A stretch of DNA of 20,905 nt, taken from IMG/VR virus record IMGVR_UViG_3300044971_004086, positions 1-20,905 of that record; one strand, 5' to 3'. The DNA comes from a virus. Shown here one piece after another: positions 1 through 16,775 of the stretch. A program made the translations under genes and the position numbers. How positions within the stretch are numbered: position 1 is the first letter of the stretch; every line of letters starts with the position of its first letter. The notes beneath the pieces are model-generated. The model was not told the origin of the DNA, did no database searches, and saw nothing but the letters and a program-made list of their open reading frames with translations.

Positions 1-381
1 GGGTGAAAACTGGCGATTCATTCCCATTCCAGATGAGCTCATGCCGCCCACACCTCCCATTCCCATGCCCCCACCCATGTTCATTCCAGAATTCATGCCA
101 GCCATCTTCTCCTGGCCTCTAGACCATGCAGCAACACCAAGAACAGCGCCCATCGCAAGATGATACAATCCTGCACCCTGAAGTGTGATTGGATTCCATT
201 GGCTAGTCACCTGACCATTACTGACTGTTTGTAGAATGCTCCAAAGAACAGGAAATAAGATGAAGTCTACAGAGCATGTGATCATGTAGACCCAGCCCAT
301 CATAGGACGCCATTTCTTGCTCATCCAGTCTTCGGCTGGTTTTCCATCTGCTGTTTTAAGTTCTGTCGATACTTCAGGCAT
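1..381 (-). CDS. Putative holin, C-terminus off the left edge (partial)
   Basis: The frame runs from an ATG at 381 and is still open at base 1 (127 codons visible). It has an SD-like GAGGT just upstream. Residues 27-50 (MMGWVYMITCSVDFILFPVL) and about 67-86 are hydrophobic, preceded by a charged WMSKKWRP segment, and the loop between them holds QWNPITLQGAGLYH. This layout matches, from memory, small marine-myovirus proteins annotated as holins. The visible C-terminal part (residues 93-127) is an odd Met/Gly/Ser-rich tail made of GM and MGG steps. It follows the o-spanin, i-spanin and endolysin genes, which supports a role in permeabilising the inner membrane at lysis. A tail or baseplate-associated membrane protein is the alternative. 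Confidence 0.6.
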   Translation of the reverse strand, partial: MPEVSTELKTADGKPAEDWMSKKWRPMMGWVYMITCSVDFILFPVLWSILQTVSNGQVTSQWNPITLQGAGLYHLAMGAVLGVAAWSRGQEKMAGMNSGMNMGGGMGMGGVGGMSSSGMGMNRQFSP

Positions 382-390
382 GACTACCTC

Positions 391-789
391 TTAAAAAATC
401 TTCCAGAAAGGCTTTTTCTCTTCTGGTTTGTCTTCTTTTGGCTCTTCAACTTTCTTTCCATAATAATCTTTGTAGGCGATGATAACTTGTTGCTGCTGGA
501 CAATGAAACGTCTTAGCTCAGCTGTGTTGACACTCAATGCTTCATAGCCTGTTGGGGTCAGTGCAAACAACACAAACATTTGTCCTTTGTCTTCAAAGTC
601 CTTCATAACGTTGTTAATGTTGTCTTTGTTGATAACAACCCAGTCAAATTGAATCTGGTCAACTGGTCGCACCTCTGGAACTATCAACTGGGGACGATCA
701 ACTAGAATAGGTTTCTCAATAATTTTTGGACTTGTTGAACCGCATGCTGCCAGCGACAATGCAGCAACCACCAGCATTATGTACTTCAT
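391..789 (-). CDS. Outer-membrane spanin lipoprotein (Rz1-like)
   Basis: 132 residues. A short hydrophobic signal ends in the lipobox LAAC with the lipidated cysteine at residue 16. A proline-rich stretch follows (SPKIIEKPILVDRPQLIVPEVRPV, residues 20-43), typical of outer-membrane spanin subunits. The C-terminus is rich in Lys, Glu and Pro. Its ATG overlaps the stop of the upstream i-spanin gene in an ATGA junction (786-789), so the two are translationally coupled. Together they should form the complex that spans the periplasm and fuses the two membranes after peptidoglycan is cut. The size is larger than lambda Rz1 but common for separately encoded o-spanins. The call rests on lipobox, proline content and neighbours, not on sequence identity. 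Confidence 0.7.
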   Translation of the reverse strand: MKYIMLVVAALSLAACGSTSPKIIEKPILVDRPQLIVPEVRPVDQIQFDWVVINKDNINNVMKDFEDKGQMFVLFALTPTGYEALSVNTAELRRFIVQQQQVIIAYKDYYGKKVEEPKEDKPEEKKPFWKIF

Positions 790-1250
790 TTGACTTCTTT
801 CTTACTCTTGACTAGCTCTGGGCAAATTGTGTTTTTATCATCTTCAGATTTCAATGAAGCTCCAGTTGCAAGCTCATTGCAACGAAGAGCCATTTTTGTT
901 CCTCTATTAAGTCTTTCTTCTATTTCTCTTGGCTTTTTGTTAGCCATATCACTTAAGTTTCTAGCCTTTCCATTAGACTCTCTGAACTTCTTTTGAAGGT
1001 CTGAGACATCTTTTTGTGCATTGTTGAACTTATTGTTGAGTTCTATGTTTATCTTTCTAATGTTCTCCATGTCTTCTTGCTGTTTCTTCATCACAAGATC
1101 GCGAGCTTTGATAGCGTCTTCAAGTTTCTGTTGTGCCTCTACAGCAGCCTGGAGCTGGTGTCTTAGGCTTTGGACATAGAAATATCCTCCACTGCTGACA
1201 GAGGCTAGAACAACAAAAACGACTGCTTTTGAAGCAAGAAAACCGAACAT
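786..1250 (-). CDS. Inner-membrane spanin (Rz-like)
   Basis: 154 residues from the ATG at 1250; a TTG one codon further up (1253) is also possible. Residues 5-25 form a single N-terminal membrane anchor. The following ~80 residues are highly charged and heptad-like (VEAQQKLEDAIKARD, NIELNNKFNNAQKDVSDLQK), as expected for the periplasmic coiled coil of an i-spanin. Cysteines occur near the C-terminus. The gene sits between the GH19 endolysin, whose stop is 4 bases away, and the o-spanin, with which it overlaps by ATGA. Role: inner-membrane partner of the spanin complex in the last step of host lysis. Architecture and context are strong, while the sequence itself is not diagnostic. Confidence 0.7.
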   Translation of the reverse strand: MFGFLASKAVVFVVLASVSSGGYFYVQSLRHQLQAAVEAQQKLEDAIKARDLVMKKQQEDMENIRKINIELNNKFNNAQKDVSDLQKKFRESNGKARNLSDMANKKPREIEERLNRGTKMALRCNELATGASLKSEDDKNTICPELVKSKKEVK

Positions 1251-1254
1251 CAAC

Positions 1255-1878
1255 TCAGCTCAGATTGTTGAAAACATCGAGTGCGTGATTGTAGTGCTTA
1301 ATTCTATCTTCTAGACCAATGAAGCCCCCATTGATCAGCTTTGTCATCTTCTTAATGTCGCCTGTGTCTGCCACAGCATTAAGATTCCTGCTGTGCCAGA
1401 ACCAAGCAGCAGAACGGGCAGCTCCCTCAGGAGTTTCAAAGTATGATGGATCGTCAATACCAAGTGCCTCCATACATGTATAATAATTGTTCTTCCCAGT
1501 CAACTGAATTAGTCCTCTTCCGCGATAGGCCCAGCCTTCTCCTGATTCCTCAGGACCATTGCCCATTCTGTTTGCATAGACCCTATTTGCAATTGCTTCT
1601 GGGTTACGCTGATACTGCATTGCCGTCTGTTCATTGAAGTACTTCGGAAAAACCTTGACAAGTCCCTGGGCACTGTAGTTAAGATTTTCTTTGACAAAAC
1701 GAAGGTTGCCACTTTCATGACCAACCTGTGCAATGAACGCAGCCAGTCTCATTGGAGTGTTGATTTCAAATTCCGCACATGCAGCGGCCATTGGTTCTGC
1801 AAATGCCTGACATGATTGCATAGAAGCCTCTGGAAGGCACTCTTTAAGGATTTCTGGGGTGATCATTTGAAACTCCAA
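1255..1878 (-). CDS. Endolysin, glycoside hydrolase family 19 (chitinase-like)
   Basis: 207 residues without an obvious signal peptide. The GH19 core is clear: AAFIAQVGHESGNLRFVKEN places the catalytic glutamate at E55 with a second acidic residue at E64, and GEGWAYRGRGLIQLTGKNNY (about 113-132) is the highly conserved GH19 substrate-cleft motif. The family cleaves beta-1,4 glycosidic bonds; phage members degrade peptidoglycan. With no export signal it should depend on the holin to reach the periplasm. It heads the lysis block followed by the two spanins and the putative holin. A second start at M5 is possible. Confidence 0.9.
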   Translation of the reverse strand: MEFQMITPEILKECLPEASMQSCQAFAEPMAAACAEFEINTPMRLAAFIAQVGHESGNLRFVKENLNYSAQGLVKVFPKYFNEQTAMQYQRNPEAIANRVYANRMGNGPEESGEGWAYRGRGLIQLTGKNNYYTCMEALGIDDPSYFETPEGAARSAAWFWHSRNLNAVADTGDIKKMTKLINGGFIGLEDRIKHYNHALDVFNNLS

Positions 1879-6477: not shown

Positions 6478-6505
6478 ATTATACACATAAGAAATTGGGT
6501 GTCAA
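6478..6505 (-). promoter_or_regulatory. Consensus sigma70 promoter (TTGACA-16-TATAAT)
   Basis: On the minus strand, TTGACA (6500-6505) and TATAAT (6478-6483) are both perfect consensus hexamers, separated by 16 bp. Transcription would start near 6471 and read the 73-residue gene. This is the only perfect host-type promoter I noticed in the window. Confidence 0.8.
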
Positions 6506-6513
6506 CATAAATA
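6506..6513 (+). promoter_or_regulatory. Candidate late promoter CATAAATA of the curli operon
   Basis: CATAAATA matches the T4 late promoter TATAAATA at 7 of 8 positions. It abuts the -35 box of the divergent sigma70 promoter. The first ATG (csgF) is 14 bases downstream, so the leader would be very short and would start close to the AGGAGG at 6518-6523. No sigma70-like promoter on the plus strand was found for this operon. Confidence 0.5.
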
Positions 6514-6527
6514 TTGCAGGAGGATCT

Positions 6528-6968
6528 ATGCGCAAAACTCTGCTCCTTGTCATGGTGTTGATCCCTTCGATCTCACAAAGTGAACCACAAACTTTTTCGT
6601 TTAAAAATCCCTCATTCAGCGGAATTGGGTACTCGTCGCACGTTCTGACCATTGAAACAATGGAATCCCAGAGAAGAGAGAAGATCAGAGCGGACGAAGA
6701 CGCAAGACGTCGTGAGGAGCAAAGAAAGATAGACAATTCAAACCTGTCAAAGTTCCTTCTGAACGTAGAAGGAAGAATCTATGCACAAATTAGCAAGCAG
6801 CTTGTAGACACAATGTTCGGCGAAAGTGCAAGCAACAGTGGGTCTGTTGTTGTCGAAGGCAACACTATTTCGTTTATCAAAGATGCTTCATCTGTCACTC
6901 TTTCTATAGTTCAACCAAACGGAAACACGACAACAGTCGAAGTTCCTATCGGCGAGTTCAAATTCTAA
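6528..6968 (+). CDS. csgF: CsgF-like curli assembly factor
   Basis: 146 residues from the ATG at 6528, chosen over the in-frame ATG at 6474 because AGGAGG sits 4 bases before it and the signal peptide starts there (MRKTLLLVMVLIPSISQS). The mature N-terminus PQTFSFKNPSFSG matches the CsgF signature (tFqFrNPnFgG) that plugs into the CsgG channel. A charged linker follows, then SNLSKFLLNVEGRIYAQI and a C-terminal domain with VVVEGNTISF. In curli systems CsgF is a periplasm-exported factor that binds the CsgG pore and positions nucleation of the fibre at the surface. The internal charged stretch (RREKIRADEDARRREEQR) is longer than I expect for E. coli CsgF. Its stop shares a base with the next start (TAATG). 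Confidence 0.85.
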   Translation: MRKTLLLVMVLIPSISQSEPQTFSFKNPSFSGIGYSSHVLTIETMESQRREKIRADEDARRREEQRKIDNSNLSKFLLNVEGRIYAQISKQLVDTMFGESASNSGSVVVEGNTISFIKDASSVTLSIVQPNGNTTTVEVPIGEFKF

Positions 6969-7753
6969 TGAAAAAGTTGTTGTTTTTGCCTCTAGCATTG
7001 CTAGTTGCATCTTGTTCTTTTGTCCCAAAATTCTATGCTCCCTCATCAATGCAGCCAGATGCCACAGTCAAAAAAGAGTTTGAAACTATTGGGGAGATAG
7101 ACGGTCCTCCAGTCGTAGTAGCTGTCTATTCCTATCTCGATAAAACTGGTCAAAGAAAGCCTAGTGATAACGTCGCTCATTTAAGCACTGCTGTCACACA
7201 AGGAGCTGATTCGTGGGTGATAAAGTCTCTTCAAGATGTTGGAAATGGAAAGTGGTTCAAAGTTGTAGAACGCGTGGGTTTAGACAACCTCATAAAAGAG
7301 AGACAGTTGATTAGAACAGCAAGAGAAGCATTTGAAGGTGAGAAGGCAAAAGAACTTAAGCCATTGCTGTTTGCAGGTGTGATTGTTGAGGGAGGAATTA
7401 TTAGTTACGACACAAACATCTCATCTGGAGGCATTGGAGCAAGATACTTGGGAATAGGTGCTTCTACACAGTATAGACAAGATGTCGTCACTGTATTCAT
7501 AAGAATGGTAAGTGTACAGACAGGCGAGATTCTTATCTCTACTGCAGTTCAAAAGACAATCCTAAGCTACAGAACACAAGCAGATGTGTTTAGATTTGTA
7601 GACATGGGCACAAAAGCAGTCGAAACTGAGGTTGGTCTTGCAATGAATGAACCAACAAACTATGCTGTAAAGGCTGCTATAGAACAGTCTGTTGTAGAGT
7701 TAATCAAAGAAGGTGAACGGAAGAAAATCTGGAAAAGAAAGGAAAACACATGA
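6968..7753 (+). CDS. csgG: CsgG-like outer-membrane curli secretion pore
   Basis: 261 residues, close to the E. coli CsgG length. A lipoprotein signal ends in VASC (C16), as expected for outer-membrane anchoring. Strong family blocks: VVVAVYSYLDKTGQRKP (49-65), WFKVVERVGLDNLIKERQLI (96-115), GGIGARYLGIGASTQY (154-169), TGEILISTAVQKTILSYRTQ (185-204) and the VFRF stretch that follows. CsgG forms a nonameric 36-strand barrel that exports curli subunits. In the loop matching the E. coli constriction (PYPASNF before STAV), this protein has PSDNVAHL, so the aromatic ring residues known there appear replaced. Coupled to csgF by TAATG and to the next gene by ATGA. Confidence 0.95.
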   Translation: MKKLLFLPLALLVASCSFVPKFYAPSSMQPDATVKKEFETIGEIDGPPVVVAVYSYLDKTGQRKPSDNVAHLSTAVTQGADSWVIKSLQDVGNGKWFKVVERVGLDNLIKERQLIRTAREAFEGEKAKELKPLLFAGVIVEGGIISYDTNISSGGIGARYLGIGASTQYRQDVVTVFIRMVSVQTGEILISTAVQKTILSYRTQADVFRFVDMGTKAVETEVGLAMNEPTNYAVKAAIEQSVVELIKEGERKKIWKRKENT

Positions 7754-8421
7754 TCAAAAACCTTTTAGTGGGTTGTTTGATTGGTTTGATGTCTAGTGCT
7801 GCACTTGCAACAGAAAGCGAAATCTATATCGAACAAACAGGAGAAGCTCTGACTCTTACAATTACACAACAGAATGGTGCTCTTAACAAGATAAACACCT
7901 CTATCAATCCTGCCATCATTAATGGTGACAACAACACAATCACTGTGATGCAGGATGGAGCAACAAACGTGTTGAATTTTGAGTTGAGAGGAAACACAAA
8001 CATTGTTGATCTAAAGCAAGAAGGTAACTCAAATACAATGGACTTAAAATGCAATGAAGGGGGAGCTTTCAATTGCACAGATGCAAACATCAAGTTCTAT
8101 GACATTGGTGACAACAATACTACTTCTGTTGTAGTGAAGCAAAATCAAATAACTGTTGATGCAACTATCACTGGAGACACGAACACAACAAACCTAACAA
8201 TGAATAGTCAGGGTGGCTCATTGACATTGACAGTGACTGGAAACACAAACACAACATCATTCAATCAATCCGGAGCTCCAGTCGTCCCACATTCTGCTGT
8301 TGTTTCACACACAGGAAACAACGGAACTCTGACGCTTGTTCAATCTGGTAATATTACTAAGACAATGAATGTGACGACAAATGGCAATAATCATACTTCT
8401 ACTATTACTCAGTCTGACTGA
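7750..8421 (+). CDS. Curlin-repeat protein (CsgA/CsgB-like fibre subunit)
   Basis: 223 residues with a Sec signal (cleavage likely after AALA, residue 20). The mature part is almost only Asn, Thr, Ser, Gly, Gln and Val, arranged in about seven units beginning [T/N/I/R]-G-[D/N]-[T/N]-N: GDNNTITVMQDGATN (59-73), GNTNIVDLKQEGNSN (81-95), GDNNTTSVVVKQ (120-131), TGDTNTTNL (141-149), TGNTNTTSFNQSG (163-175), TGNNGTLTLVQSG (188-200) and NGNNHTSTITQSD at the end. The N-x5-Q-x-G-x2-N spacing is that of curlin repeats, which stack into an amyloid beta-solenoid. Two cysteines (C101, C109) break the series and may form a disulfide loop. It is longer than CsgA. CsgG next door should export it. Whether it acts as major fibre or as nucleator is open. 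Confidence 0.8.
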   Translation: MIKNLLVGCLIGLMSSAALATESEIYIEQTGEALTLTITQQNGALNKINTSINPAIINGDNNTITVMQDGATNVLNFELRGNTNIVDLKQEGNSNTMDLKCNEGGAFNCTDANIKFYDIGDNNTTSVVVKQNQITVDATITGDTNTTNLTMNSQGGSLTLTVTGNTNTTSFNQSGAPVVPHSAVVSHTGNNGTLTLVQSGNITKTMNVTTNGNNHTSTITQSD

Positions 8422-9406
8422 AGCAAAGGCCAGTTCTATTGGTGAAATCATCCAACTGACTGGCCCAGCTCAGCTAGACAAAAAATCAGGGTCTTCTGTA
8501 GACGTATCAAAAGGGTCTCAAGTAGAATCGCTAGACACTGTTAGGACAGCTAGAGCAAGAGCCAACATTAAATTCAAAGACGAAACTCAAGTAGCAATTA
8601 CAGAGAACAGCAAGCTTATCATAGACGAATACATCTTTGATCCAAACAAAGGTGTAGGAAAGATGTCTATGAAGATAGCTCTTGGAACAGTTCGATATGC
8701 TTCTGGGGCAATTGCAAAAAACAACAACGAGAATATCAATATTCAGACTCCTGTCGCGACAGTGGGTGTCAGAGGAACATCATTCAGCATGACTGTTGAT
8801 GAGGTTGGCCAAAGTCTTGTGATTCTTCTTCCAAACAATGATGGAACGGTGGGTGAGATTAAAGTAGACACAGATGCAGGACAAGTAATCCTTAACAAAG
8901 CATTCCAATCGACGTTTGTCGCATCAAGTGAAAACAAGCCAGCCTCGCCTGTAATCCTAAACCTCAACGAATCCCAAATTAACAATCTTCTTATAGTTTC
9001 AAAGCCAGAGTCGGTAGATAAAGAAGAAGGTGGCTCACACTTTCTAAGAAACGATTTTCTAGAGTTTACAGAGTTAAACAAGACTGATCTAGACAAAGAA
9101 CTTCTTTTGTTTAATGAATTGGATATTAACAGGTTAGATGTCGATCTTCTTGCTAACGTTCTTGATGAGTTTGATAGTTCATCGGTTGGAAAGGTTGCTG
9201 GGTTCAATGCATCTACACAAATCAACACAATTCTAGAAGGGACAAACATCAAACTTGTGAGAGTGGTTAATGCCACAATGTCACTTAACATTGACAAAGA
9301 CAAGAACTACCAACTACACATAAATCAGGGTCAAGGAGACATCCCAGTTACAATTGGGGATGGTAATTCACCTTATCTGAACAACATAAGGATAATACAA
9401 AAATGA
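8381..9406 (+). CDS. Secreted FecR-domain protein
   Basis: 341 residues. A hydrophobic signal (IIILLLLLSLTEAKA) directs it to the periplasm. Residues 20-140 form a FecR domain: IQLTGPAQLD, SQVESLDTVRTARARANIKF, DETQVAITENSKLIID, IALGTVRYASG and the hallmark TPVATVGVRGTSFSMTV (123-139). There is no cytoplasmic or membrane part, unlike true FecR anti-sigma factors. The C-terminal ~190 residues are acidic, with leucine-rich DxL repeats (about 235-262), and of unknown fold. The start overlaps the curlin gene by 41 bases and the stop overlaps the cyclase start as ATGA. Secreted FecR-domain proteins are often encoded beside CHASE2 cyclases in bacteria, so it is probably the periplasmic partner or ligand of the next gene's sensor. 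Confidence 0.85.
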   Translation: MAIIILLLLLSLTEAKASSIGEIIQLTGPAQLDKKSGSSVDVSKGSQVESLDTVRTARARANIKFKDETQVAITENSKLIIDEYIFDPNKGVGKMSMKIALGTVRYASGAIAKNNNENINIQTPVATVGVRGTSFSMTVDEVGQSLVILLPNNDGTVGEIKVDTDAGQVILNKAFQSTFVASSENKPASPVILNLNESQINNLLIVSKPESVDKEEGGSHFLRNDFLEFTELNKTDLDKELLLFNELDINRLDVDLLANVLDEFDSSSVGKVAGFNASTQINTILEGTNIKLVRVVNATMSLNIDKDKNYQLHINQGQGDIPVTIGDGNSPYLNNIRIIQK

Positions 9407-11475
9407 GTTTCTTCACGTCTTGGAAGATCGTTGCTATTGTTCTACTTGGTCTTGTCGGATTGAGACTTCAGGATGGTTGGTTGGTCGAGACATTAAGACT
9501 AAAGACATTTGATTTCTATCAAATCTCTAAGAATCAAGACAAGAGTGATCAGATTTCAATTGTTGAAATAACGGACGATGACATTGATAATTTTGGCCAA
9601 TGGCCATGGCCTCGCGATAAAGTAGCATCAATTTTGGAAATGATGAAGATGTTCAAACCAGCTGCAATCGTCATGCCAATCATATTTTCGGAACCAGACA
9701 GATTTGGCAAAGACGAAGAACTTGCAGATGCACTAGAAGGAGTCATCATTGCACAAGCGCCATCAAACAAGGCTTCAAAGGTAGAAGGATCGCCAAGAGG
9801 AATTGCTATCGTAGGTCTTGATCCAAACAATTGGCTACAAAGTTTTGTTGGAATAGTACGCCCGCTCAAGATGTTTGAGGACAACGCAGCTGGTGTTGGC
9901 GTGCTTACCGCATCTGGTGAAATAGATGGTGTTGTTAGAAGAATTCCAATGGTTGTAAGAATAGGTGAATTAGACTCGCTTGTATCTCCAAAGATTTATC
10001 CTACACTGTCGCTTGAAGTCATTAGAACACTTGCTGGTGATCGTAGTTATCAAATGAAAGTTGGAATTAATGGTGTAGAATCAGTCAGAATTCCACAATT
10101 TGAAACAATCAATACAGACTCAAATGGTCGCGTTTGGATCAAGTACAACAAGGAGTTTGATAGAAGAACAATATTCCATATGGATGATATTGAAAACAAA
10201 GTAGTCATTCTTACAATTTCTGCAGAAGGATTGGCTACAAATGTACCTACACCATATGGTCTAAAGAATATTGCAGAAGTTCAAGCTGCAATGATTTCCA
10301 CATTAGTCAATGGCGATTCATTGACTAGACTTGATTACGCAGATGCATTGGAACTCGTTACTCTGACGATCATAGGTCTATTGTTCATTGTTCTTGTTCC
10401 AAGATTGATGATTTGGCAAACCATACCTTTTTATGTGGTTTCAGTTGCAGGAATCATTGGATTCTGCTTCTACATGTACGAAATGAATATTCTTTTTGAT
10501 TACTCATTTCCTTTATTTACAATTACTTTAGTCTTCTCATGGCTAGTATTCAATAACTTTGCAAGAGAGTTTAGACTAAAGCAACAGATTAAGAAGCAGT
10601 TTCAATCTTATCTTTCTAAGGAGCTAGTAGAGAAGCTTCAGAAGAATCCAAACTTGCTCAAGCTTGGAGGAGATAGCAGAGAGCTTTCTATTATGTTCAC
10701 TGATGTAAGAGGGTTTACTTCTATCAGCGAGCATTACGGAGACAATGTTCAGGGTCTCACAAACATAATGAATCGATACATGACTGCAATGACAGGAAAG
10801 ATTCTAGACAACTCTGGAACACTTGACAAGTACATTGGTGATGCTCAGATGGCATTCTGGAATGCTCCTTTGGATGACAAGCAGCATGCAAAGAATGCTG
10901 TCAAAACAGCTCTTAGCATGTTGGGAGATCTGGACGACTTTAACAAGAAGATTGCAGAGGAGGGCGTTCCTCCGTTTGGAATGGGCCTTGGAATCAACAC
11001 AGGTACGGTTGTTGTTGGCAACATGGGTAGTGATCAAAGATTCGACTACACGTGCTTAGGAGATGCAGTCAATCTAGCAAGTAGACTAGAAGGCCAGTCA
11101 AAACCTTATGGCGTAAGGATAGTGATTGGTCCTAAGACAGCTGAGTACGTTGCAGACGAGTACTTTATACTTGAACTTGATACAATTGCTGTCAAGGGCA
11201 AGAAGCAAGGTGTGAATATCTATACTGTACTTGGAACAATCAAAGAGATGGAGTTCTTGAACTATGTGCCATTCAGAGTAATGCACAACAATATGCTTGA
11301 TGATTATCGCTCACAAAAGTTTGGAAGCGCAATAATAACGTGTGAAAAATTAAAACGAGCATTCAATGGTGGAATGAAGTCATACTATCAAATGATGGCT
11401 GAAAGATGCGAAGAATACTTAAAGAATCCACCACCAGCTGATTGGGATGGAGTCTATAGAGCTACTTCAAAATGA
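9403..11475 (+). CDS. CHASE2-domain class III adenylate cyclase
   Basis: 690 residues. TM1 (about 8-22), periplasmic CHASE2 sensor (about 25-310, with VEITDDDIDNFGQWPWPR), three membrane helices (317-333, 340-358, 366-384), a linker helix, then a class III cyclase domain (425-605). Catalytic residues are present: metal-binding D434 (FTDVRGFTS) and D480 (DKYIGDAQMAF), adenine-selecting K476 and D548 (RFDYTCLGD), transition-state N557 and R561 (GDAVNLASRLEG). This predicts an active enzyme making cAMP from ATP. The C-terminal tail ends PPPADWDGVYR, as in many bacterial CHASE2 cyclases. The pattern of periplasmic sensor plus cytoplasmic catalysis fits signalling from the upstream FecR protein. 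Substrate assignment to ATP is inference from K476 and D548. Confidence 0.95.
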   Translation: MSFFTSWKIVAIVLLGLVGLRLQDGWLVETLRLKTFDFYQISKNQDKSDQISIVEITDDDIDNFGQWPWPRDKVASILEMMKMFKPAAIVMPIIFSEPDRFGKDEELADALEGVIIAQAPSNKASKVEGSPRGIAIVGLDPNNWLQSFVGIVRPLKMFEDNAAGVGVLTASGEIDGVVRRIPMVVRIGELDSLVSPKIYPTLSLEVIRTLAGDRSYQMKVGINGVESVRIPQFETINTDSNGRVWIKYNKEFDRRTIFHMDDIENKVVILTISAEGLATNVPTPYGLKNIAEVQAAMISTLVNGDSLTRLDYADALELVTLTIIGLLFIVLVPRLMIWQTIPFYVVSVAGIIGFCFYMYEMNILFDYSFPLFTITLVFSWLVFNNFAREFRLKQQIKKQFQSYLSKELVEKLQKNPNLLKLGGDSRELSIMFTDVRGFTSISEHYGDNVQGLTNIMNRYMTAMTGKILDNSGTLDKYIGDAQMAFWNAPLDDKQHAKNAVKTALSMLGDLDDFNKKIAEEGVPPFGMGLGINTGTVVVGNMGSDQRFDYTCLGDAVNLASRLEGQSKPYGVRIVIGPKTAEYVADEYFILELDTIAVKGKKQGVNIYTVLGTIKEMEFLNYVPFRVMHNNMLDDYRSQKFGSAIITCEKLKRAFNGGMKSYYQMMAERCEEYLKNPPPADWDGVYRATSK

Positions 11476-11580
11476 ACATTTGAATAATTGGAAGACAACA
11501 CCAAGAATTATTCCAAGGATGAATCCTATGAATAGTCCGCCCCACATGGCAACGATCATGTCTGATGTCTTATAGGTCAT
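11467..11580 (-). CDS. Possible 37-residue single-pass membrane peptide
   Basis: A short frame from the ATG at 11580, which overlaps the end of the upstream secreted-protein gene by 11 bases. It encodes MTYKTSDMIVAMW followed by a glycine-rich hydrophobic stretch (GGLFIGFILGIILGVVFQLF, residues 14-33) and ends in KCSF. No strong SD is seen (AAAGAAAG). Its last 9 bases overlap the end of the convergent cyclase gene. The clean N-in/TM design and the operon overlap argue for a real gene; the small size argues for caution. Confidence 0.45.
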   Translation of the reverse strand: MTYKTSDMIVAMWGGLFIGFILGIILGVVFQLFKCSF

Positions 11581-11893
11581 TTTCTTTCTTTTGAGTTATC
11601 TTGGTGTAGTCTTGTGAAATACTGATTAAGCAGCTGACTTCTTTGAAATTCTCAACAACTAGAAGTTCATCGTCCTTTAAAAGCAACAAAACGTACCCCA
11701 CTATCCTATCAGTATTATCAAGAACAATTGTAGATTTTCCTATGATTCTATAGTCATCTTTTTTCAGTTGCTCTAGTACTGTCCTTGTTTCACCACACAA
11801 CACCGGCTTTGGTCGCCACATCATCTCTTCTTGAGCGTGTGCTCTGGCGCCAAAAAGCGCCAGAGCTATTGCACATACTATAACGTTTTTCAT
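11570..11893 (-). CDS. Small secreted periplasmic protein, unknown
   Basis: 107 residues. A clear Sec signal (MKNVIVCAIALALFGARAHA, cleavage after residue 20) is followed by QEEMMWRPKPVLCGETRTVLEQLKK. Two cysteines remain in the mature part (CGET near the start and SCLIS near the end) and could form a disulfide. The pattern CG.T..vL..L......igkS with a later Cys resembles short secreted proteins of marine phages and bacteria, though I cannot name the family. Its ATG shares a base with the stop of the autotransporter-like gene (TAATG), so it is translationally coupled to it. A periplasmic helper or quality-control role for the outer-membrane protein is inference only. Confidence 0.7.
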   Translation of the reverse strand: MKNVIVCAIALALFGARAHAQEEMMWRPKPVLCGETRTVLEQLKKDDYRIIGKSTIVLDNTDRIVGYVLLLLKDDELLVVENFKEVSCLISISQDYTKITQKKENDL

Positions 11894-13794
11894 TAGAATA
11901 CAATCCTTATTTGCGCACCTATGATGTTATTTACCACACCATCTTTCTCTTGTACTGCATATTTTAGCAGAATAGATGCACTAGGATCAAATGAGTAGTT
12001 AAATCCCCCAAAGATAGTTTTGGTCTTTGTTGTTTCCAATACTCCCTCAACAACAGCCGTCAAGTCGTTTATTATTTCCTGTTCGTATCGCAATCCACCA
12101 TGACCAGAAGTGATAAAGTCCTTTCTAGCAGCATGATTGACTGCTGTTACAGAAGAACCACTTTCAAAAATGTTATTTCTATAGTCGTATTCAAATTTGA
12201 TCCCTGCAAAAGGTCTAAATCCATAATTATCTGGAGCATACACTCTATTGACAAACCAGACATCGTGGCCAGAAGTTTCTGCTGTGTTTGACAAACTTAA
12301 GTCGCGAATGAAATGATGAGTTTCAAACTCATTGTATGCTGTGCCGAGATTTGTCTTCAATAGCCAATCCTCATAAGACTTTAGCGCGAAGAAGTCTATT
12401 GAATACTTTCTAAGTTCACCACCAGACGCATCTCCTCTAAGATCAGTGACGCCAATGTTTAGCTGACCACCTAGCAATAAAGAATCGTTATACTTTTCTT
12501 CATATCCAATGCCAAAGACATTTGTCGTATACTTGTAAGTGTCCTTGGTACCAGATCGAAGAGAATAACCAGTCACATAGACTTGAGATTGCTTTGTAGG
12601 ATCACTTCTATTCGTAATCTTGTCATTTGCAACCTTGTTTCTTGATAGAGGATCTGTCAATGAGTTTTCATTTTGTAGAGTGCTAATCTTATCAAGCTTT
12701 GCAATTTGATCAATGCGTGTGCCAAAAACAGTGTTCACAGGAGTAGTTATTACTTCGTTTGTTGTTGAAGTTGCAGTCAAAACTTCATTAATTACCGATG
12801 TTGTTGTTACCGGCGATCCATTTACCGTAGTTGTGGAACCATCACTCCATGTCTGGATTGTAGATGGTGTTGTTACTGTTGTTGTTGTGATGGGTGTAGT
12901 GCTTGTGACTACAGTTGTGATTGGTGTTGTTGCAACAGTCGTAATGTTTCTGTTTACAGAAAGTATCTGCTCTCGTCTTGTTGGTGTAAGTGTTGTTGTT
13001 GAAACAGAGTTTGTTGTTCCTCGTGTACTTACACTTGTTGTAGTCGTTTCCCCACGGTTTGACAAGGAAGACACAGCGTCTGGGCCTGGGGCTGTGCTTA
13101 CAATTGTTGGTGATGGATTGCCTGCTGCTGCACCTTGAGCTGGTGTGGCAAGAGTTGTAAAACCTACATTACTAGGTATTGTGCACGATGCTACAGCAAT
13201 CGATGTGTCTGCGCATGGACCAGCATAAACACCAAGTTGCACAGAACTACCATTGCTTGTGTGGTTACCAGAAACTTCAAAACTTAATGTGTAAATTGTA
13301 TTCGATAGTAGGTCTATACCTTGGTAGATACCATCAAATGTTCCGACAGCACCATCATACCAGACACCACCATGTGATCCACCGATGTCTTGCCAAGTTC
13401 CTGCAGCTGCTGGATACGTTCCGTTCTGATACCAAACACCCCAGTTAGTAGGGGCTTGTATTGTGCCTGGTCCATTATTTGTCGTGATGCTGATTGCACC
13501 ACCAGAACTAAATCCTCCATTTGTAAGAAGATTTGTAGAAGATCCTGGAGCCGTCAGAGTTACATTATCAAACGTCCAAAAAGCAGGATCTTGTCTGAAT
13601 GCAAAACCAACGTAGTTTGAGCCAGAGATACTTGGGGTGAAAGAATACGAATAAGGCTGCCACGTGTTTGGCGTGTTATTCGTTACAATTCCAATATATC
13701 CACTTGGAAGAACTTGTGATAATGCAATTGATGTTGTTAGTAATGTGACAAAAAGTAGAAGGCTATTCAGTATCCTTCTTGTCTTTATTTGCAT
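11893..13794 (-). CDS. Autotransporter-like outer-membrane protein, lectin-like passenger
   Basis: 633 residues. Sec signal at 1-27; a beta-rich passenger (about 30-210) whose blocks TWQPYSYSF, FWTFDNVTLT, NLLTNGGFSSGG, FDGIYQGIDL and YTLSFEVSGNHTSNG resemble jelly-roll carbohydrate-binding folds; a Thr/Ser/Val-rich linker (230-355) with runs such as TTTTSVSTRGTTNSVSTTT; a short helix (RIDQIAKLDKISTLQNEN, 360-377) like the alpha-helix that sits in an autotransporter pore; and a C-terminal domain (about 400-633) of alternating amphipathic strands (VFGIGYEEKYNDSLLLGGQL, FRPFAGIKFEYDYR) ending in the outer-membrane signature ...QIRIVF with terminal Phe. Predicted to display its passenger on the host surface. 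It overlaps the upstream small membrane gene by 32 bases. The passenger ligand is unknown. Confidence 0.8.
   Translation of the reverse strand: MQIKTRRILNSLLLFVTLLTTSIALSQVLPSGYIGIVTNNTPNTWQPYSYSFTPSISGSNYVGFAFRQDPAFWTFDNVTLTAPGSSTNLLTNGGFSSGGAISITTNNGPGTIQAPTNWGVWYQNGTYPAAAGTWQDIGGSHGGVWYDGAVGTFDGIYQGIDLLSNTIYTLSFEVSGNHTSNGSSVQLGVYAGPCADTSIAVASCTIPSNVGFTTLATPAQGAAAGNPSPTIVSTAPGPDAVSSLSNRGETTTTSVSTRGTTNSVSTTTLTPTRREQILSVNRNITTVATTPITTVVTSTTPITTTTVTTPSTIQTWSDGSTTTVNGSPVTTTSVINEVLTATSTTNEVITTPVNTVFGTRIDQIAKLDKISTLQNENSLTDPLSRNKVANDKITNRSDPTKQSQVYVTGYSLRSGTKDTYKYTTNVFGIGYEEKYNDSLLLGGQLNIGVTDLRGDASGGELRKYSIDFFALKSYEDWLLKTNLGTAYNEFETHHFIRDLSLSNTAETSGHDVWFVNRVYAPDNYGFRPFAGIKFEYDYRNNIFESGSSVTAVNHAARKDFITSGHGGLRYEQEIINDLTAVVEGVLETTKTKTIFGGFNYSFDPSASILLKYAVQEKDGVVNNIIGAQIRIVF
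12745..13105 (-). repeat. Low-complexity Thr-codon tract encoding the passenger linker
   Basis: The coding strand of the linker is dominated by ACA/ACT/ACC threonine codons, seen on the plus strand as GTTGTT and GTGGTT-like runs. It encodes about 115 residues of mostly Thr, Ser and Val. Such tracts tend to vary in length and would also explain the spurious open frame on the opposite strand. Confidence 0.6.
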
Positions 13795-14023
13795 ATGTCT
13801 CCCTCATCATTAGAACGATGTTTATTTTTTGATTGAGTCTAATCAAATCATTGTCCAACATTCTAACGCGGTCGATCAATGCAATCAGGACTGTGTTTGC
13901 TTCAGATAACACAGGTTTGATTTCTGCTGTAGCCCATTTCCAAACGTAGAAAATCAAGTAACCCATACCGCCAGCAGCGACGATAGGAAATCCGTATTTG
14001 TTGATTAGTTGTACTATATCCAT
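13763..14023 (-). CDS. Small membrane protein, paralogue B of a tandem pair
   Basis: 86 residues. MDIVQLINKYGFPIVAAGGM leads into one membrane helix (about 12-30), followed by a charged amphipathic region ALIDRVRMLDNDLIRLNQKI (48-67). The plan (short helix, GFPI, glycine-rich TM, then D/N-R-x-x-x-x-x-x-D-I/L-x-R-I/L) is repeated in the gene just upstream (14026-14310). The size and layout recall YvrJ- or BhlA-type small phage holin-like proteins, but no family match is claimed. A good AAAGGA lies before the ATG at 14023. The end overlaps the autotransporter-like gene by 32 bases. Confidence 0.65.
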   Translation of the reverse strand: MDIVQLINKYGFPIVAAGGMGYLIFYVWKWATAEIKPVLSEANTVLIALIDRVRMLDNDLIRLNQKINIVLMMRETYANKDKKDTE

Positions 14024-14025
14024 GT

Positions 14026-14310
14026 TCAGTCCTTTCTTGCATCGTTTTTACCGTCAGCTCTTGCGAGTCTGTCGGTATCAGGTCTGACATGTAGTGCTGT
14101 TGAAATCAAAGTGTCAATTCTGACGATGTCGTGATTCATAGTCTTGACGCGATTGTCAAGAGCCATGATAATTCCACTCAATCCCTTCACTGAACTTTGA
14201 ACGCCGGCGAGAATAAACTTTAGCGTAAGAAAAACAAAGTATCCGCCTGCTATTGAAGATGCAATTGGAAATCCAACTTCCGCCACCAGCTTGAAGAATT
14301 CTGCTTCCAT
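14026..14310 (-). CDS. Small membrane protein, paralogue A of a tandem pair
   Basis: 94 residues. MEAEFFKLVAEVGFPIASSI leads into a membrane helix (about 14-36, AGGYFVFLTLKFILAGV), then ALDNRVKTMNHDIVRIDTLI (50-69) and a charged tail ending NDARKD. It shares GFPI, the glycine-rich start of the TM and the D-N/D-R-V-x-x-x-x-x-D-I/L-x-R pattern with the next gene. A GGGGGT SD precedes the ATG. It is the first gene of the minus-strand unit that ends in the small peptide at 11467. Possible roles are a holin-like pore, a membrane scaffold for the outer-membrane protein, or a tail-associated membrane protein; none can be chosen from the sequence. Confidence 0.65.
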   Translation of the reverse strand: MEAEFFKLVAEVGFPIASSIAGGYFVFLTLKFILAGVQSSVKGLSGIIMALDNRVKTMNHDIVRIDTLISTALHVRPDTDRLARADGKNDARKD

Positions 14311-16223: not shown

Positions 16224-16775
16224 TTATTCTGCTTTAGGCAGCTTATTCTCAATCAACTTGAGGAAGAGAACTGCAAGTGCAATCATGTACGTCTTTGCAA
16301 TCAGCTGACCAACGATATACTTCTGGCTTCCAAATGCAATCTGGAGGAACAGGAAGCTGTCAACTGCCATACCAACAAGGCTTGAACCAATAGCTGCAAC
16401 AATTAGACCCTTCTTGATGAGAGGCGCATAGACAGCCGTGTCGATCAATTCTGCAACTAGAAAAGCGACAACTGAAGCGACGACAAGAGCAGGAGGAGAA
16501 AACATCCAACTAAGAACAGCACCGATGCAGATAGCGTAGATGCTGTACGTAAGACCCAAATAACGATGAGTCAAATCTCGAAGAACGAACGCAAGGCCAG
16601 CTGCAAGAACCCCACTGGCAGTGTCATAACCAAAACCAACAGGAATAAGGCAAGGTCCATTAGGAATGCAGACAGTCCCAATGTTAGACACTAGATAGTT
16701 ACTAAGAGGCACCATACCACAGAAAAGGATGAAAGAGATCCATCCAAGGTTTTTGCTATTAAGTTCAAAAGTCAT
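16224..16775 (-). CDS. Queuosine-precursor-type transporter (YhhQ/VUT family)
   Basis: 183 residues, almost entirely membrane-embedded, with about six hydrophobic segments starting at LGWISFILFCGMVPLSNYLV. Family-like features are SNYLVSN early, DTASGVLAAGLAFVLRDLTHRYLG in the second and third segments (RD.TH pattern), and LVAELIDTAVYAPL in the middle. This family (COG1738/YhhQ) takes up 7-deazaguanine precursors such as preQ0/preQ1; phages with deazaguanine-modified DNA can carry related transporters. No other queuosine or dPreQ0 genes lie in this window. AAGGAG lies 6 bases before the ATG. It ends a unit closed by the strong terminator at 16169-16203. Another small-molecule transporter of the VUT group is the alternative. 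Confidence 0.85.
   Translation of the reverse strand: MTFELNSKNLGWISFILFCGMVPLSNYLVSNIGTVCIPNGPCLIPVGFGYDTASGVLAAGLAFVLRDLTHRYLGLTYSIYAICIGAVLSWMFSPPALVVASVVAFLVAELIDTAVYAPLIKKGLIVAAIGSSLVGMAVDSFLFLQIAFGSQKYIVGQLIAKTYMIALAVLFLKLIENKLPKAE

Follow-up and report, generated by a model that had tools for sequence, protein, structure and literature searches.

Why would a virus carry a curli secretion operon tail to tail with a second operon of membrane and secreted proteins, and do the two belong together? We addressed this question for the IMG/VR record IMGVR_UViG_3300044971_004086 (20.9 kb, probably a fragment of a genome; this whole stretch is called the window here), which is described as a virus of aquatic bacteria and whose helicase is closest, among isolates, to those of T4-like cyanophages and of Melnitz, a Methylophilales phage, at about 61-64% identity. 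Our data support that the plus-strand curli/FecR/cyclase operon and two small transmembrane (TM) proteins of the minus strand, TMa and TMb, are one co-inherited set despite their changing geometry. This divides the minus-strand genes: the TM pair goes with the module, while the autotransporter, a secreted protein of 107 amino acids (aa) and a 37-aa peptide behave differently. We read the locus as a phage-borne curli (type VIII secretion system, T8SS) module of the pelagiphage type, combining amyloid display, an envelope sensor, TM partners and an optional autotransporter, and assign this reading a probability of roughly 0.6.

Gene content of the curli locus

All ten genes that an earlier note had placed between the structural/lysis block and position 14310 were found where it had put them, five on each strand. 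The tightly packed plus operon, in which genes overlap, encodes CsgF, CsgG, a curlin-repeat protein, FecR and a CHASE2 adenylate cyclase; the minus strand encodes a TM peptide, a small secreted protein, an autotransporter and two TM proteins; and the cyclase stop and the 37-aa peptide overlap by 9 bp. The features are as follows (signal peptides in window proteins were judged by eye only).

6528..6968, plus strand: CsgF, periplasmic/surface chaperone of the curli pore (Pfam CsgF 3.4e-14; phrog_35372 2e-44)
6968..7753, plus strand: CsgG, outer-membrane curli secretion pore lipoprotein (Pfam CsgG 1.3e-53)
7750..8421, plus strand: curlin-repeat fibre subunit, CsgA/B-like (Pfam Curlin_rpt 7.3e-6, above cut-off)
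8381..9406, plus strand: FecR-domain protein with an N-terminal hydrophobic leader, probably periplasmic (Pfam FecR 3.1e-12, residues 52-147)
9403..11475, plus strand: CHASE2 sensor, TM helices and class III adenylate cyclase (Pfam CHASE2 1.2e-38, Guanylate_cyc 5.2e-20)
11467..11580, minus strand: 37-aa single-TM peptide (open reading frame; overlaps the cyclase stop)
11570..11893, minus strand: small secreted protein, 107 aa, two conserved Cys (by homologues; a common phage family, not curli-specific)
11893..13794, minus strand: predicted type Va-like autotransporter, 633 aa, accessory (AlphaFold and Foldseek)
13763..14023, minus strand: TMb, 86 aa, one TM, conserved ALIDRIRMLDNDLIRL segment, phrog_18771 (alignment)
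14026..14310, minus strand: TMa, 94 aa, one TM, conserved ALDNRVKTMNHD and DGKNDARKD tail, phrog_18771 (alignment)

The Pfam matches for CsgF, CsgG, the curlin repeat, FecR, CHASE2 and the cyclase all lie over the curated cut-offs, and CsgG, CsgF and the curlin-repeat protein, adjacent on the same strand, identify the plus operon as a curli or type VIII secretion locus. CsgG also matched NCBIfam CsgG at 7.5e-56, under the equivalog cut-off, and the curlin-repeat protein gave weak NCBIfam CsgB/CsgA matches and six repeat-like motifs by regular expression. The start of csgF is probably the ATG at 6528, behind an AGGAGG, instead of 6474/6478. In the FecR protein, the FecR domain is the sole Pfam match and follows a hydrophobic leader, whereas E. 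coli FecR has a cytoplasmic anti-sigma start. Pfam returned no CsgE, CsgC or CsgD among the ten window proteins scanned; because their absence is usual in alphaproteobacterial and phage modules (PMC9599517), these three proteins do not define membership.

Co-inheritance of the membrane pair with the curli operon

Viral loci were gathered by independent queries with the cyclase, the autotransporter and CsgG, as well as with TMa alone, and were mapped with hidden Markov models (HMMs) grown from the window proteins; the sampling is biased to close relatives, and the counts do not represent independent events. TMa and TMb are paralogues of one family (phrog_18771). Of 116 informative csgG loci (from 128 unique loci, 12 of which were cut short), 114 carried the pair and two were without it despite full flanks, and its order was constant, with TMa followed by TMb in their own reading direction. 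Its position varied: in 75 of the 114 loci the pair preceded csgF on the same strand, in 34 it lay inverted behind the cyclase, and in 5 it had another placement. Upon querying with TMa only, we recovered the cyclase in 35/35 informative loci and the full csgF-csgG-csgA-fecR-AC set (AC, adenylate cyclase) within the flank in 24, and the CsgG-only query returned TM, csgF, csgA, FecR and cyclase in 17/17 informative loci. A scan of 50,697 phage records found the TM family in only six, all of them records of Melnitz and HTVC008M, and these six are also the ones that hold a full CHASE2 cyclase and curli set. That the pair was repeatedly moved or flipped yet retained with the module is good evidence for a shared function. 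The convergent layout of the window is a rearranged form of TMa-TMb-(AT)-csgF-csgG-csgA-fecR-AC (AT, autotransporter), which lies on one strand in loci L033 and L043. A two-gene membrane partner that is mobile yet almost never leaves the module offers a concrete new handle on curli modules.

Relation to described phage modules

While the earlier note knew of no described phage system with this full set, the plus operon has been published for pelagiphages. CsgF and CsgG were reported in pelagimyophages in 2020, together with the idea of sibling capture (PMC7029224), and a 2022 study of podo- and myoviral pelagiphages described the full set of csgF, csgG, csgA/B, FecR and adenylate cyclase, showed that the viral T8SS genes are expressed in Pacific metatranscriptomes and proposed that the set had passed from one viral family to another (PMC9599517). 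What is new here lies mostly on the minus strand, namely the module's membrane partner, along with the missing cyclic AMP (cAMP) receptor. In the available parts of the published pelagiphage and Melnitz descriptions, the autotransporter and the small membrane pair are not described as such. One or two 'histidine kinases' are placed before csgF in PMC9599517, and the TM pair probably corresponds to these misnamed genes, judging from its position in HTVC008M and Melnitz, its size of about 90 aa and the lack of a kinase match. Family scans of TMa and TMb (94 and 86 aa) gave no match to a histidine-kinase domain, and a histidine-kinase identity for the small genes before csgF was rejected.

The window shares with the pelagiphage T8SS module (HTVC008M, HTVC023P-type) the same order of csgF-csgG-curlin-fecR-(curlin2)-adenylate cyclase with two small linked genes, which in the window are moved and inverted; HTVC008M has the TM pair as well, but just upstream of csgF. 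The window differs from this module in its TM pair inverted behind the cyclase, in having no second curlin gene, and in the insertion of the autotransporter, the secreted protein and the TM peptide. Melnitz likewise has the TM pair, csgF, csgG, FecR and CHASE2 cyclase, with two curlins, but its module occupies a single strand, shows no autotransporter by HMM and carries Ser instead of the catalytic Asn. The Melnitz GenBank record (L213 7191-7910, 8969-9985) annotates two curlin-repeat proteins, whereas the paper describes csgA/csgB as lacking (PMC9004378). In the published pelagiphage genome MW574966, the 45 kb examined carried no gene annotated as curli. Viruses that infect the most abundant bacteria of the ocean widely carry curli modules.

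An optional autotransporter by predicted fold

The call of the 633-aa protein as autotransporter-like, which had rested on an impression of its sequence, was borne out at the level of the predicted fold. Pfam and NCBIfam gave no match for this protein. Its AlphaFold model (mean predicted local distance difference test score, pLDDT, 78) shows a helix preceding a 12-strand C-terminal barrel, and the best Foldseek match in the PDB was the NalP translocator (E 4e-10; TM-score 0.81 on the target), with NalP, EstA, AaaA, BrkA, Hbp and EspP at the top ranks and AIDA-I also matched. Along the chain we distinguish a leader (by eye), a beta-rich passenger at about 28-215, a Thr-rich stalk at about 231-360, the 12-strand barrel at 403-631 and a C-terminal F. 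In its helix, 12-strand C-terminal barrel and N-terminal passenger it resembles the type Va autotransporters NalP, EstA, BrkA and AIDA-I, while it departs from them in an identity of about 10-15%, the Thr-rich stalk and a phage-specific passenger. The modeled fold identifies it as a type Va autotransporter, with predicted display on the cell surface.

As a check, the earlier note had asked whether the two operons are gained or lost as one, which they are not. The closest relative (L013/L133, with csgG 99% identical) is without both the autotransporter and the secreted protein, and L010 and L011 are without the autotransporter, L010 retaining a 30-aa stub of the 107-aa protein. The stub of this gene beside the TM pair (L010 3138-3230; L011) is a likely footprint of a deletion that took the autotransporter. 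Nor is the autotransporter tied to the plus operon in much of its family, which in many relatives occurs at unrelated loci: on four large contigs CsgG lies about 28-76 kb from the autotransporter, and a 177-kb contig with the autotransporter gave no CsgG match. The single programme that the earlier note had proposed is partly supported, by the co-inheritance of the TM pair with curli, FecR and cyclase.

In curli modules, members of the autotransporter family were found at five places: behind the cyclase in convergent orientation, in the gap that separates TMb from csgF, ahead of csgF (the TM pair then being on the other side), in the interval from curlin to cyclase, and downstream of the cyclase. 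Passenger and barrel have been exchanged between family members. The autotransporter is an optional accessory surface protein that was probably captured more than once. More widely, we observed a large phage autotransporter family with exchangeable passenger and barrel (L101-L131; L215 5134-6783), a distant relative of which, in cyanophage DSL-LC03, adjoins two endolysins.

A conserved cyclase and the scarcity of CRP-type receptors

The window cyclase carries D434, K476, D480, T550, N557 and R561, the complete class III residue set. A Lys/Thr pair is the mark of class IIIb cyclases, and by this pair the window cyclase is assigned to the IIIb type from its sequence. Across 129 unique phage homologues, D434, K476, D480 and R561 (both metal Asp, the adenine Lys and the Arg) are invariant, and the catalytic Asn is replaced by Ser in 14/129, Melnitz included. 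Such conservation of the catalytic residues implies that cyclase activity is under selection. The HTVC008M cyclase (L214 10001-11836) is without the last about 80 residues that most relatives have.

Feedback from the envelope to cytoplasmic cAMP, as the earlier note had it, is plausible up to synthesis, but a CRP-type receptor is almost absent. The CRP-type cyclic-nucleotide domain PF00027 was found in 4/79 genomes of the SAR11 family, some of them incomplete, and in 0/22 curli-phage records, in a search that covered the CRP-type domain only. The 79 genomes represent the family of a Candidatus Pelagibacter metagenome-assembled genome (MAG), its name inferred from the MAG title, and this family may not be that of the phage's host. 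Class III cyclases at the cut-off were present in 2/79 of these genomes. One could envision an orphan cAMP circuit, unlikely in our estimate, in which the intact phage cyclase would signal in hosts mostly without CRP-type receptors and TMa/TMb would act as an unrecognised effector or as a coupling device for curli export or envelope state. With a conserved cyclase that lacks an evident receptor, the role of cAMP in infected SAR11-type cells becomes a testable question.

A bacterial operon of the same order

Among 80 CsgG loci from the bacterial collection, the true bacterial curli operons almost all had neither FecR nor cyclase within the flank, and the TM pair occurred in this collection only on contigs that resemble phage contigs binned into MAGs. 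The exception was Hyphomonas sp. TMED17 (L220 9453-15476, on a 706-kb contig), where csgF-csgG-curlin-FecR-CHASE2 cyclase stand among ordinary bacterial genes. This operon has the gene order of the window and a cyclase of the same clade; unlike the window it is bacterial and has neither the TM pair nor an autotransporter match, as TMa found no match in the whole Hyphomonas sp. TMED17 genome and the L220 locus gave none for the autotransporter. In the cyclase tree (midpoint-rooted, for drawing only), the Hyphomonas cyclase and all phage cyclases form one group with 100/100 support, to which 23 other alphaproteobacterial CHASE2 cyclases do not belong. Given this operon and this grouping, it is probable that FecR and cyclase were acquired with the bacterial curli genes and that the TM pair is a phage addition; the Hyphomonas operon suggests that the bacterial source already contained FecR and cyclase, rather than phages having supplied them. 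In other Alphaproteobacteria, FecR beside a CHASE2 cyclase was found, with the phage-derived HMM, in 3/29 short loci among the matches listed. The Hyphomonas operon contradicts a published statement that FecR and cyclase do not lie within bacterial T8SS operons.

Proposed function and alternatives

Building on the gene identities, the co-inheritance of the TM pair, the catalytic residues, the predicted autotransporter fold and the grouping of the phage cyclases with that of a bacterial curli operon, we infer the following scheme. The CsgG/CsgF outer-membrane pore would export the curlin-repeat protein, which would form amyloid on the surface of the infected cell, while periplasmic FecR and the CHASE2 domain may respond to the condition of the envelope or to the passage of curlin, a signal that the cyclase would turn into cAMP. 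TMa and TMb could form an inner-membrane hetero-oligomer that couples the cyclase or curlin export to the cytoplasm, and the convergent autotransporter would be an additional, optional surface protein that the module acquired in this lineage. An altered surface of the infected cell would be the likeliest benefit, as a barrier to rival phages or for aggregation with sibling cells.

Several points weigh against this reading. We know of no demonstrated fibre for any curli phage. CsgE and CsgC are missing, which is also the case in other pelagiphages; in the fragments of one sublineage (L055, L058, L071) the module occurs without the TM pair; many relatives of the autotransporter family have no curli gene nearby; and the CRP-type domain is as scarce as described above. 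Furthermore, no clumping was seen for Melnitz (PMC9004378).

An alternative casts CsgG/CsgF as a pinholin- or secretin-like pore governing the timing of lysis, with the TM pair as holin-like partners. Such a lysis pore was proposed for Melnitz from synteny and pore modelling (PMC9004378), and TMb weakly matches the holin phrog_4898 (E 1.4e-4, 19 residues), with no Pfam holin match. Yet the window has a complete and separate lysis cassette, given which we rejected the lysis-pore reading as very improbable, and lysis timing would leave curlin, FecR and cyclase unexplained, though they are kept in all informative CsgG-query modules. Furthermore, the paper that proposed the pore states that fibre genes are absent from Melnitz, whereas its GenBank record annotates FecR beside the two curlin-repeat proteins (PMC9004378).

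It is also conceivable, though doubtful, that the minus-strand genes are accessory genes of a hypervariable region, unrelated to curli. The region was called hypervariable in pelagimyophages (PMC7029224), the autotransporter, the secreted protein and the 37-aa peptide are gained or lost singly, and the autotransporter occurs elsewhere in many phages. This account fails for the TM pair, given its retention in 35/35 and 114/116 loci, and the five positions of the autotransporter family within curli modules suggest more than one capture event. A role of CsgG as an import pore for nutrients, cofactors or iron complexes, with the fibre secondary, was suggested in PMC7029224 and PMC9599517, and the name FecR and the lack of a CsgE gate would fit it. 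We nevertheless give it little chance: a curlin-repeat protein is present in every informative CsgG-query locus, FecR has a hydrophobic leader rather than the E. coli-type anti-sigma start, and no sigma-factor family matched among the proteins scanned in the window, the record being a fragment. We retain the curli display module, with its sensor and TM partners, as our preferred reading.

Other features of the window

Homologues of the 107-aa secreted protein lie near the transfer-messenger RNA in Melnitz, and elsewhere upstream of or inside curli modules. No fold was assigned to this protein (model mean pLDDT 78; no PDB match under E 0.001). The 37-aa TM peptide is conserved in close relatives only. 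The lysis cassette occupies positions 1-1878 on the minus strand:

1-381, minus strand: holin, 3 TM
391-789, minus strand: o-spanin
786-1253, minus strand: i-spanin
1255-1878, minus strand: GH19-type endolysin

Sigma70-like and late-promoter-like matches in the window were at chance level overall, and promoter logic was dropped as an explanation. A perfect TTGACA-N16-TATAAT promoter lies at 6478-6505 (minus strand), directed away from csgF toward the leftward genes. Finally, positions 16224-16775 (minus strand) encode a membrane transporter of the Vut_1 family (Pfam 2.5e-12), which includes queuosine-precursor transporters.

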